A stretch of 64,000 bases of DNA from NCBI RefSeq assembly GCF_012271785.1, contig NZ_JAAWVT010000001.1:62001-126000 (forward strand), read 5' to 3'. Below the pieces are notes generated by a model, which was not told the DNA's origin, did no database searches, and saw only the letters and a list, made by a program, of their open reading frames with translations. Positions within the stretch are counted from its first letter, which is position 1. Every line of letters begins with the position of its first letter. A program made the translations under genes and the position numbers. Source of the DNA: Paeniglutamicibacter terrestris. Its GTDB lineage: Bacteria; Actinomycetota; Actinomycetes; Actinomycetales; Micrococcaceae. Below, one piece after another: positions 49,864 to 53,126 of this stretch.

Positions 49864-50076
49864 TTAACCGGTGTTGAAGTCTCGACCGAATCCGGCTGCC
49901 CGCAGGTATTCCTGCACGGCGTTCTCTGGGACTCGGTAGGAGCGACCGAAGCGAACGGCCGGCAAATCACCGGAATGGACGAGTCGATAAACCGTCATCT
50001 TTGAAACACGCATCACATCGGCAACCTCGGCCACCGTCATGAAACGCGCGCTGGCAAAGTTTTGCGATTCGACCAT
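49864..50076 (-). CDS. Helix-turn-helix protein, excisionase/BldC-like
   Basis: A 70-residue DNA-binding protein consisting almost wholly of a MerR/excisionase-type winged helix: FMTVAEVADVMRVSKMTVYR, then LVHSGDLPAVRFGRSYRVPENAVQEYL. Such proteins lie next to the bS22 gene in many actinobacteria. AGGAG lies about 10 bases before the ATG. Targets are unknown; phage excisionase function is unlikely in this conserved housekeeping setting. Confidence 0.85.
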   Translation of the reverse strand: MVESQNFASARFMTVAEVADVMRVSKMTVYRLVHSGDLPAVRFGRSYRVPENAVQEYLRAAGFGRDFNTG

Positions 50077-50269: not shown

Positions 50270-51382
50270 CTAGCATGCAGCGCGCACCGCTGCGGCCAAG
50301 GTGTCCAGCAAGTCGGAGCTAGTTTCCCAGTTCATGCACGCATCGGTGACCGACTGGCCGTAACGCAACCCACCGAGCACATCAGCGCCCACTGCCACTG
50401 CGTCGGGATCGTGCTTCTGCGCGCCCGCCACAAGGAAACTTTCAGCCATGATCCCGGCTATGCTCTGATCGCCGGCGGCAATGCGGGCCGCCAGTTCGCC
50501 GATAACCTCGGCCTGGCGAACCTCTGATTTTCCGGAGTTCGCGTGGCTTGCATCGACGATCAGACGCGGATTCATACCGGATCCGGCCATGGCCGCGGAC
50601 GCCGCAGCAACCTGCTCGACACCGTAGTTTGGCCCATCCGCTCCTCCACGCAGAATCAAGTGGGAGTCCTGGTTTCCCGTGGTCGTCACGATCGCGGTGC
50701 GACCGTCATCACTAATACCAAGGAACGATTGCGGGGCACTAGCGGCCTGGCAGGCGTCAATCGCGACCTGAACCGATCCGTCGGTGCCGTTCTTGAAGCC
50801 CACCGGCATCGAAAGGCCAGAGACCAACTGCCGATGCGTTTGGCTTTCGGTGGTGCGGGCCCCGATGGCTCCCCAACTCATCACATCAGCGAGGTACTGA
50901 GCGCTCAGCGGTTCGAGGAACTCGGTGGCCAACGGTAGCCCCAAGTTGCTGGCGGCGAGGGTGAATTCGCGGGCGGCACGTAAGCCGGCGGCCATGTCGT
51001 GGCTACCGTCAAGGTGGGGATCATTAACCAGACCCTTCCAGCCCACCGTGGTGCGTGGCTTTTCGAAGTAGCTTCGCATGACCACCAGCAACTCACCTTC
51101 ATGCGTCTTGGCAGCAGCAGCGAGCTTTGCAGCGTATTCAAGGCCCGCTACGGGGTCATGAATGGAGCATGGTCCGATGATCACCAGCAGGCGCTGATCA
51201 AGGCCTGAGAGCACCGCACGGACCTCCTGACGGGCCCTCATGATGCGGTAGCCCTGTGCGTCCCCCACCGGGAGCTCGGTTATCAGTTCCGCGGGGGTTG
51301 GCAGCTCAGTAATGGAGGTGATGCGCTCGTTGGTGTTGAAGCGCGGTTGTTCTTTTACGGCGGGGCTGATGTTGGTGCTCAT
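50270..51382 (-). CDS. aroG: 3-deoxy-7-phosphoheptulonate (DAHP) synthase, class I
   Basis: A 370-residue enzyme joining PEP and erythrose-4-phosphate, the first step to aromatic amino acids. The AroFGH-type motifs are VIIGPCSIHDP, MRSYFEKPRTTVGWKGLVND, GARTTESQTHRQL, VGFKNGTDGS and VDASHANSGK. ATG at 51382 with GAAAGG upstream is chosen; longer in-frame starts run into the regulatory leader. Upstream lie a promoter, a short Trp/Tyr/Phe-rich leader frame and alternative hairpins, so expression is probably attenuated by aromatic amino acid supply. The paralogue letter (F, G or H) is arbitrary. Confidence 0.93.
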   Translation of the reverse strand: MSTNISPAVKEQPRFNTNERITSITELPTPAELITELPVGDAQGYRIMRARQEVRAVLSGLDQRLLVIIGPCSIHDPVAGLEYAAKLAAAAKTHEGELLVVMRSYFEKPRTTVGWKGLVNDPHLDGSHDMAAGLRAAREFTLAASNLGLPLATEFLEPLSAQYLADVMSWGAIGARTTESQTHRQLVSGLSMPVGFKNGTDGSVQVAIDACQAASAPQSFLGISDDGRTAIVTTTGNQDSHLILRGGADGPNYGVEQVAAASAAMAGSGMNPRLIVDASHANSGKSEVRQAEVIGELAARIAAGDQSIAGIMAESFLVAGAQKHDPDAVAVGADVLGGLRYGQSVTDACMNWETSSDLLDTLAAAVRAAC

Positions 51383-51414
51383 GATCGGTGGCCTTTCGGT
51401 GAGACCCCGCGATT

Positions 51415-51525
51415 CAACGGGGGCCGAGTAGTTTGTTTGCGGCCCCGTTGATCCTCGCTGCAATTCCTTCAGGGCCGCTATCGTGAAAATAGCGAAGGGC
51501 CTGCAAGCAATAGCTTGCGGCCCTT
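51415..51525 (-). promoter_or_regulatory. Attenuator-like hairpins between leader peptide and DAHP synthase
   Basis: Three stems on the minus strand: AAGGGCCGCAAGC with GCTTGCAGGCCCTT (51495-51525, one bulge), CGCTAT with ATAGCG (51476-51494), and CAACGGGG-CCG with CGG-CCCCCGTTG (51415-51450). GGGCCGC in the first stem can instead pair with GCGGCCC further downstream, giving mutually exclusive folds as in ribosome-controlled attenuators. Confidence 0.6.
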
Positions 51526-51552
51526 GTCGACTCTGAAGGTGGGTATGCGAAT

Positions 51553-51612
51553 TTACCGCGTCCTAGGCTCCTCCAGAGCCGACACAAAATACGCATACCA
51601 ACGATTAGTCAT
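51553..51612 (-). CDS. Aromatic-amino-acid leader peptide of the DAHP synthase gene
   Basis: A 19-residue frame beginning MTNRWYAYF, so residues 5-9 are Trp-Tyr-Ala-Tyr-Phe, one or more codons for each end product of the pathway. It has no ribosome binding site; its ATG falls about where the promoter predicts transcription to begin, implying leaderless translation. Alternative hairpins follow before the structural gene. This is the expected design of a ribosome-stalling attenuator. Confidence 0.75.
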   Translation of the reverse strand: MTNRWYAYFVSALEEPRTR

Positions 51613-51619
51613 GGGTTGA

Positions 51620-51648
51620 AACATACAACCGCGAAGAACGATTGACAA
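51620..51648 (-). promoter_or_regulatory. Promoter of the DAHP synthase leader transcript
   Basis: Minus-strand TTGTCA (51643-51648), a 17-base spacer and TATGTT (51620-51625). The leader ATG begins 8 bases after the -10 element, which places it at or next to +1. Confidence 0.75.
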
Positions 51649-51693
51649 ATACTGCCCGCAGGCAGGGCTTCACAATTCGTCACTGATACACAA

Positions 51694-51745
51694 AAGCGGG
51701 TTGGAAGGAGTTGAACATCGCTGTTCCATTCCTTCCAACCCGCTT
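51694..51745 (-). terminator. Terminator of gdhA
   Basis: A perfect 16-bp stem (51694-51709 with 51730-51745), 20-base loop and TTTTG tail on the minus strand, 34 bp past the gdhA stop. Confidence 0.88.
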
Positions 51746-51779
51746 CAAATGCCAGTCGTTTTTAGCTGGTGCTACCGAC

Positions 51780-53126
<1,347 letters not shown>

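Follow-up and report, generated by a model that had tools for sequence, protein, structure and literature searches.

A conserved aroR-type leader element precedes the DAHP synthase gene of Paeniglutamicibacter terrestris and is predicted to sense mainly phenylalanine

The DAHP synthase gene of Paeniglutamicibacter terrestris is preceded by a leader element, consisting of a short reading frame with aromatic control codons and a set of alternative RNA helices, that is conserved in several families of one class. We consider it probable that the element controls DAHP synthase by ribosome-mediated attenuation of the aroR type. An earlier reading of the leader as a sensor of overall aromatic charging is corrected here, the evidence from ribosome-masked folding favoring a device that would respond mainly to Phe with some input from Tyr. 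The window analyzed is the whole 64,000-nt stretch of contig NZ_JAAWVT010000001.1 (positions 62,001 to 126,000), and all coordinates below refer to it. The features of the locus, listed in the direction of transcription, are as follows.

51643–51648, minus strand: −35 element TTGTCA; TTG or TGA lies 16–19 nt from the −10 element in 33/53 relatives.
51620–51625, minus strand: −10 element TATGTT, with the leader ATG 7 nt on; TANNNT stands at 6–8 nt in 53/53 leaders.
51553–51612, minus strand: leader ORF MTNRWYAYFVSALEEPRTR plus stop, putatively leaderless (sequence, conservation, −10 spacing).
51590–51603, minus strand: region a (CGTTGGTATGCGTA), reaching from Arg4 into the beginning of codon Tyr8 and complementary to a' (shuffle test).
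51570–51584, minus strand: region b, helix strand 1 (TGTCGGCTCTGGAGG), 3' of the leader control codons (pairing in relatives).
51540–51549, minus strand: region a' (CGCATACCCA), directly past the stop codon (window fold, complementarity).
51526–51539, minus strand: region b', helix strand 2 (CCTTCAGAGTCGAC), partner of b or d (pairing, duplex energies).
51495–51525, minus strand: hairpin c, present in both states, with a conserved imperfect T-rich tail (pairing, masked folding).
51476–51494, minus strand: small hairpin f (CGCTAT...ATAGCG); 91.5% of cells paired in relatives.
51466–51478, minus strand: region d, helix strand 3 (GCGGCCCTGAAGG), partner of b' or e' (window folds, conserved complementarity).
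51439–51447, minus strand: region e', helix strand 4 (CGGGGCCGC), partner of d (pairing in relatives, window fold).
51392–51397, minus strand: candidate Shine-Dalgarno sequence GAAAGG of the DAHP synthase gene (sequence).
50270–51382, minus strand: type I 3-deoxy-7-phosphoheptulonate (DAHP) synthase, ATG at 51382 (NCBIfam TIGR00034, Pfam PF00793).

The initial annotation had described a TTGTCA-17-TATGTT promoter within 8 bases of an ATG, a 19-codon frame with Trp-Tyr-Ala-Tyr-Phe at residues 5–9, and DAHP synthase as the structural gene that follows. Each of these is found on the minus strand. The promoter hexamers (51648–51643 and 51625–51620) are separated by 17 nt, and the −10 element ends 7 nt before the leader ATG (51612–51610); 19 sense codons, including Trp5, Tyr6, Ala7, Tyr8 and Phe9, are read directly up to the TAA at 51555–51553; and the gene product is a type I enzyme scoring 451 bits against TIGR00034 (cut-off 173) and 267 bits against PF00793. 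The promoter word by itself is at chance level (1 found, 0.9 expected in shuffles), and the case therefore rests on its position and conservation. Upstream, between glutamate dehydrogenase (51780–53123) and the leader promoter, lies a probable gdhA terminator (51690–51752, minus strand), a strong hairpin followed by CTTTTGTGT, whose U-rich tail contrasts with hairpins c and e'. A 70-aa excisionase-family DNA-binding protein is encoded on the same strand just 3' of DAHP synthase (49864–50076, minus). No Rfam family, the T-box included, reached its gathering score in window positions 51300–51800 or in eight relatives. A plus-strand match to the CPEB3 (HDV-like) ribozyme at 51484–51558 scored 21.3 bits against a gathering score of 35, was unlisted in the eight relatives (E up to 1), and is probably a chance product of the stems.

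The leader had also been proposed to be translated without a ribosome binding site. Among 53 leaders located through the enzyme and its orthologues and not through the leader itself, TANNNT ends 6–8 nt before the start codon in every case, as compared with 11 of 326 random ATG/GTG codons in the same loci that have TANNNT 4–9 nt upstream; an SD-like word between −15 and −4 is found in none of the 53. The adjacent promoter and the missing ribosome binding site thus hold at the level of sequence, for the window leader as for its relatives. The −10 spacing and the lack of an SD support, without proving, a transcript that would begin at the leader start codon, and it is from these features that we infer the leaderless start.

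Relatives were found by the enzyme, the leader not being used as a query. Each of the 15 genus genomes, the window's own counted, carries the leader with nearly unchanged DNA. In a draw from the family the enzyme was found in 22 of 61 genomes, representing 13 of 32 genera, and the leader was present in all 22 of these (three of the window's genus and 19 others) with CGTTGGTATGCGTATTTT unaltered; RWYAYF and ALEG/ALEE are kept in the family loci read. The leader codons, whose conservation across Micrococcaceae had been put forward as a check, are accordingly kept at every enzyme locus of the genus and family sets. Scanning named genomes with CGTTGGTATGCGTATTTT and GGCTCTGGAG returned at least 116 stretches; the genera among the matches listed include Arthrobacter, Pseudarthrobacter, Paenarthrobacter, Sinomonas, Paeniglutamicibacter, Zhihengliuella, Microbacterium and others, and the enzyme lies downstream in 78 of the 80 matches listed, the other two running off the end of the locus. 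A stricter peptide pattern with Val10 and Ser/Thr11 matched just 9 of 149 family genomes because those two residues vary. Draws from the order and phylum yielded the element's leader in 19 of 40 loci, which belong to families f1, f8, f11, f13 and f19 of the same order and family f22 of the class; it was missing from nine f4 loci and from 12 loci outside the class. In a draw from the class it preceded the enzyme in 5/5 f22 loci and 1/2 f81 loci, and in none of the 11 f79 loci read (a twelfth lies at a contig end). All 30 f22 loci read, the best-scoring of about 100 matches, carry it. On the opposite strand, a comparable frame was found in none of 40 loci.

Several loci merit separate description. 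Three of the 12 loci outside the class (L203–L205, family f32) have, about 350 nt before the enzyme match, a frame reading Phe-Tyr-Tyr-Phe (MIAGHGMNVRFYYFIRRALRRDGPAGGVHPA) whose ATG follows a TAGAAT at 7 nt; downstream stands a strong hairpin with the tail TTTCGTTTG. By its sequence this leader resembles the element without being evidently homologous to it, and a b/b' core is not evident. The f4 genomes (L193–L201) each carry two type I DAHP synthase paralogues without such a leader, save for a doubtful TTG frame in L197 and L199 (MYAYRYVKARE..., preceded at 7 nt by a TANNNT); this frame overlaps what appears to be the start of the gene and seems fortuitous. The names of L072 (Sporosarcina), L126 (a Nocardioides MAG) and L110 (Kocuria) seem ill-matched to the Micrococcaceae-type leader they carry, possibly through mislabeling or contamination. 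In L048/L226 (G132), L068 and L117 the leader frame runs to a shifted end as a result of single-base differences, as with MTNRWYAYFSLCSGGARV in L048. A single TGA is read through by the enzyme match in seven f22 cases (G844, G860, G909, G922, G848, G894 and G938), perhaps because the match extends 5' of the true start.

Codon choice in the leaders is extreme. All 89 Tyr codons in the 53 leaders are TAT and 50 of the 55 Phe codons are TTT, as against 6/284 (2%) and 14/388 (4%), respectively, in the downstream genes; the counts come from related sequences and are hence not independent, but the contrast is very large. The f22 frames (30 loci, one frame spurious) use TAT in 30 of 31 and TTT in 32 of 37 cases. 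The final aromatic codon is Phe in 51/53 leaders, and its distance to the b core is 8 nt in 48 and 11 nt in the remaining five. Trp, Tyr and Phe codons are all kept in the window's family; 14 of the 19 f81 DAHP synthase leaders read have no Trp ahead of the core.

From 5' to 3' the element comprises a and b within the ORF, the stop codon, a', b', hairpin c, hairpin f, d and e'. The 231-nt RNA from the leader ATG to the gene folds with z = −5.46, none of 200 shuffles being as stable. Alternative hairpins ahead of the structural gene had been proposed, and two structures are indeed obtained: folded from the ATG, the window RNA forms a:a' and b':d, and folded from b onward it forms b:b' and d:e'. 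Their conservation was evaluated on 45 representative leaders, of which 38 were aligned (MAFFT, alignment A1) and 31 were kept for pair counts (A2); the seven rows dropped from A2, the window and the other members of its genus (four rows in all) among them, had c or d shifted by MAFFT, and the consensus structure was drawn on a single row (L028). On A2, 95.4% of the cells of b:b', c and d:e' are paired, compared with 36–56% in a slid register, with individual values of 94.9% for b:b' (both-side changes in 4/14 pairs) and 95.6% for d:e'. The covarying stems sought in the initial annotation are present in these 31 sequences: 14 pairs of b:b', c and d:e' are changed on both sides, as compared with 6.7 in shuffles, none of 500 of which reached that number. 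The competing helix b':d is paired in 93.5% of A2 cells and in 22–48% when slid; in the MAFFT register its covariation in the 31 sequences does not exceed that of shuffles. Its duplex energies over all 45 leaders are better within than across families in 8/8 groups and fall in the lowest 5% of shuffles in 34/45. Region a was compared with the linker holding a' in the Micrococcaceae and Microbacterium-like set, and for 26 of its 31 leaders the complementarity lies within the lowest 5% of shuffles. The element thus has mutually exclusive 1:2, 2:3 and 3:4 helices, with covariation for 1:2 and 3:4 and conserved complementarity only for 2:3. The window leader has both d and e'; no d is visible in L327, a small-genome f22 relative.

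To recover the element by its RNA structure, a covariance model (R1) was built from 28 sequences beginning at codon 10, the control codons thus being excluded. Run on 297 genomes of the order, R1 gave matches in 49 at E 1e-3, of which two later proved false; on 296 genomes of the class it gave matches in 44 at E 0.01, of which four later proved false. The window's genome itself contains a single match. The 57 best loci were fetched, 11 of them from training genomes; the element precedes a type I DAHP synthase in 53 and a DAHP-synthase-like/chorismate mutase fusion in four. Of 20 further matches, 14 are real (11 synthase, three fusion), and an aromatic-pathway gene comes next in 12/12 of the further matches below E 1e-4; the six false ones (E 1.2e-4 to 9e-3) lack a leader as well as an aromatic gene. 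The fusion loci (L259, L267, L268, L270 and L281–L283) encode a weak DAHP synthase domain together with a type II chorismate mutase, the domains having been shown in the first four and assigned by similarity in L281–L283. All seven fusion-gene leaders contain Phe, sometimes Tyr, and none contains Trp, which fits the branch controlled.

Which amino acid the leader would sense was addressed by thermodynamic (not co-transcriptional) folding of the 45 leaders with a ribosome masking 17 nt upstream and 10–14 nt downstream of the A-site codon. When the A-site is placed on the codon lying 8 nt 5' of the b core (Phe in 42/45), b':d forms in 39/45 leaders, compared with 6/45 when the ribosome is at the stop codon and 15/45 without a ribosome. 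A ribosome stalled on Phe at 8 nt from the core causes the flip in 26/42, 37/42 and 38/42 leaders at downstream reaches of +10, +12 and +14, respectively; for Tyr at 11 nt the numbers are 2/34, 15/34 and 24/34. Stalls at Tyr 17 nt and Trp 20 nt from the core flip only 2/39 and 2/38 leaders at all three footprints. Because a Phe stall flips the switch and stalls at Trp5 and Tyr6 do not, the folding model favors mainly Phe sensing with some Tyr input over sensing of overall aromatic charging. The predicted switch is imperfectly reproduced by the leader of the window itself: its 185-nt leader gives a mixed fold upon a Phe9 stall, with four b':d pairs (threshold five), and its 231-nt untranslated RNA already prefers a:a' with b':d.

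A single tri-aromatic sensor, in which shortage of Trp, Tyr or Phe would each derepress, was the reading of the initial annotation. It draws on the retention of all three codons in the window's family, on the effect of a longer footprint on Tyr8 (24/34 at +14), and on other families in which Trp lies closer, a stall at 11 nt flipping 1/3 (+12) and 3/3 (+14) leaders and one at 14 nt 2/8 (+12) and 3/8 (+14). It is displaced as the leading reading by the footprint series, in which stalls at the distant Trp and first Tyr codons leave b free, and it is further opposed by the f81 leaders that have no Trp ahead of the core and by the relevant passage of a review, in which aroF of Corynebacterium glutamicum is stated to respond when Phe is limiting and to be unaffected by Tyr availability (PMC11802643). 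We regard it as improbable; the mainly-Phe reading fits the review's statement. An ordered codon gate is a further, rather unlikely possibility that we put forward tentatively. Phe, and partly the adjacent Tyr, would switch the gene on; a:a' would check that the leader is translated; and the output would require no intrinsic terminator. Stalling at the far-upstream Trp and first Tyr would let b:b' form and the gene stay off, so that these codons would act as vetoes.

In the mechanism that we propose for attenuation with mainly Phe sensing, a ribosome would start at the AUG at or near the transcript 5' end. With charged Phe-tRNA (and, more weakly, charged tRNA for Tyr8) it would reach the stop codon, b:b' would pair, d would be free for e', and expression would be low. 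Were the ribosome to stall at the Phe codon, a rare UUU lying 8 nt ahead of the b core, its leading edge would cover b, allowing b' to capture d, so that d:e' would be blocked and the gene expressed. The U-ending Tyr and Phe codons would probably slow decoding and raise sensitivity.

The output of such a switch is less straightforward. Hairpin c forms in 45/45 leaders in every state tested, ruling it out as a switched terminator. Since no U-tract follows c (0–6 T in the 15-nt tail) and no T run follows e' by eye in the sequences read, neither c nor d:e' is, as judged from sequence, a canonical intrinsic terminator; the 3:4 hairpin thereby departs from the trp-type intrinsic terminator with a U-tract, T counts having been made for the c tail only. 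By analogy with C. glutamicum, where aroR control is described as transcriptional in the pertinent passages of PMC11802643 and PMC6892785, a transcriptional output is favored. A possible but less probable alternative is that the same stalling leader acts on DAHP synthase translation, with d:e' or downstream hairpins hindering the 30S subunit, or on Rho-dependent termination. The missing U-tracts are compatible with such an output, as are, by eye, the many relatives in which e' lies shortly before the enzyme SD and d resembles the SD complement, and aroR control, with both Phe and Tyr named, is called translational where PMC7356990 mentions it. Computed SD accessibility stands against sequestration: among 43 leaders (gene starts were taken by a simple rule, and L039 and L174 of the 45 were dropped as no start was found) it shows no systematic change between stalled and stop states, rising by more than 0.1 in six and falling in two.

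Two further explanations fare worse than attenuation by codon-specific stalling. Arrest of the ribosome by the conserved nascent peptide, independent of tRNA charging, could account for the retention of RWYAYF and ALEG/ALEE in the family loci read, but the peptide varies across families where codon choice and spacing stay constant, and ALEGP is accounted for by helix strand b; we hold this to be very unlikely. Recognition of the invariant DNA by a DNA-binding regulator, as its operator and with the ORF incidental, would agree with the invariance of synonymous sites near the promoter and with an LtbR consensus at the −10 of C. glutamicum trpL mentioned in a passage of PMC11802643. We give this least credence of all, as conservation, compensatory changes included, runs on through the stop codon, b', c, d and e', and the frame is intact in nearly all relatives, with exceptions such as L048, L068 and L117.

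The aroR leader of C. glutamicum aroF is said to have been reported by Neshat et al. in 2014. Like it, the window element has a short ORF with Phe and Tyr codons directly before DAHP synthase. Going by the descriptions of aroR, both would operate through an aromatic-codon leader peptide and ribosome-mediated attenuation, the window leader reading Trp-Tyr-Ala-Tyr-Phe and aroR Phe-Tyr-Phe in the passages that describe it (PMC4046766, PMC11802643). A leaderless tri-aromatic attenuator on DAHP synthase had been put forward as something that would be notable; with aroR, the kind is already known. Two f22 genomes of 2.4–2.7 Mb (L316 and L327) have leaders, MRNWRFYFEWGSGR and MRMWRFYFSKAPEAETS, with the Phe-Tyr-Phe run of aroR in a similar RNA context, and because the run is identical, aroR very probably belongs to the same leader family as the window element; f22 is presumably Mycobacteriaceae and the two genomes presumably corynebacteria.

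Enterobacterial pheL and trpL have SD-led leaders, U-tract terminators and consecutive control codons, and the window leader differs from them in these respects. The 1:2, 2:3, 3:4 topology is shared with them, as outlined in part of PMC11802643. The trp attenuators of Corynebacterium and Streptomyces are alike in their leader peptide, control codons and alternative helices, and the S. lividans trp leader peptide is leaderless, as the window leader is predicted to be (relevant sections of PMC1262725 and PMC8079986); unlike the window element, whose control codons are mainly Phe and Tyr, they have a GC-rich terminator followed by poly-U in the account of PMC1262725. PMC1262725 also describes the LEU element of actinobacterial leuA, which likewise couples a leader peptide to a conserved alternative RNA structure without an obvious terminator. 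There, the control codon run pairs with the Shine-Dalgarno sequence of the gene, whereas in the window its partner is a', just past the leader stop. The aroF genes of E. coli and Shewanella are tabulated with a tRNA-Tyr-sensing attenuator, with older E. coli work cited (a table of PMC2659441); these are Gammaproteobacteria with a predicted motif, and no leaderless leader is described in that part of the source. A 2005 survey of Actinobacteria (PMC1262725) reports, in the pertinent passages, no conserved RNA structure ahead of genes for Phe or Tyr; no aro leader figures among those listed for S. lividans in the portion concerned of PMC8079986. Within the open PMC literature, we found no description of this element in Micrococcaceae.

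Taken together, aroR, described in one industrial species, is now linked to an RNA element of several families that is unmatched in Rfam. The leaders rely almost exclusively on codons that the downstream genes very seldom use and so make a clean natural case of attenuator codon choice, and the relatives with a shifted frame end (L048/L226, L068 and L117) are natural variants usable for testing. The model specifies which amino acid would be read through the distance from codon to helix.
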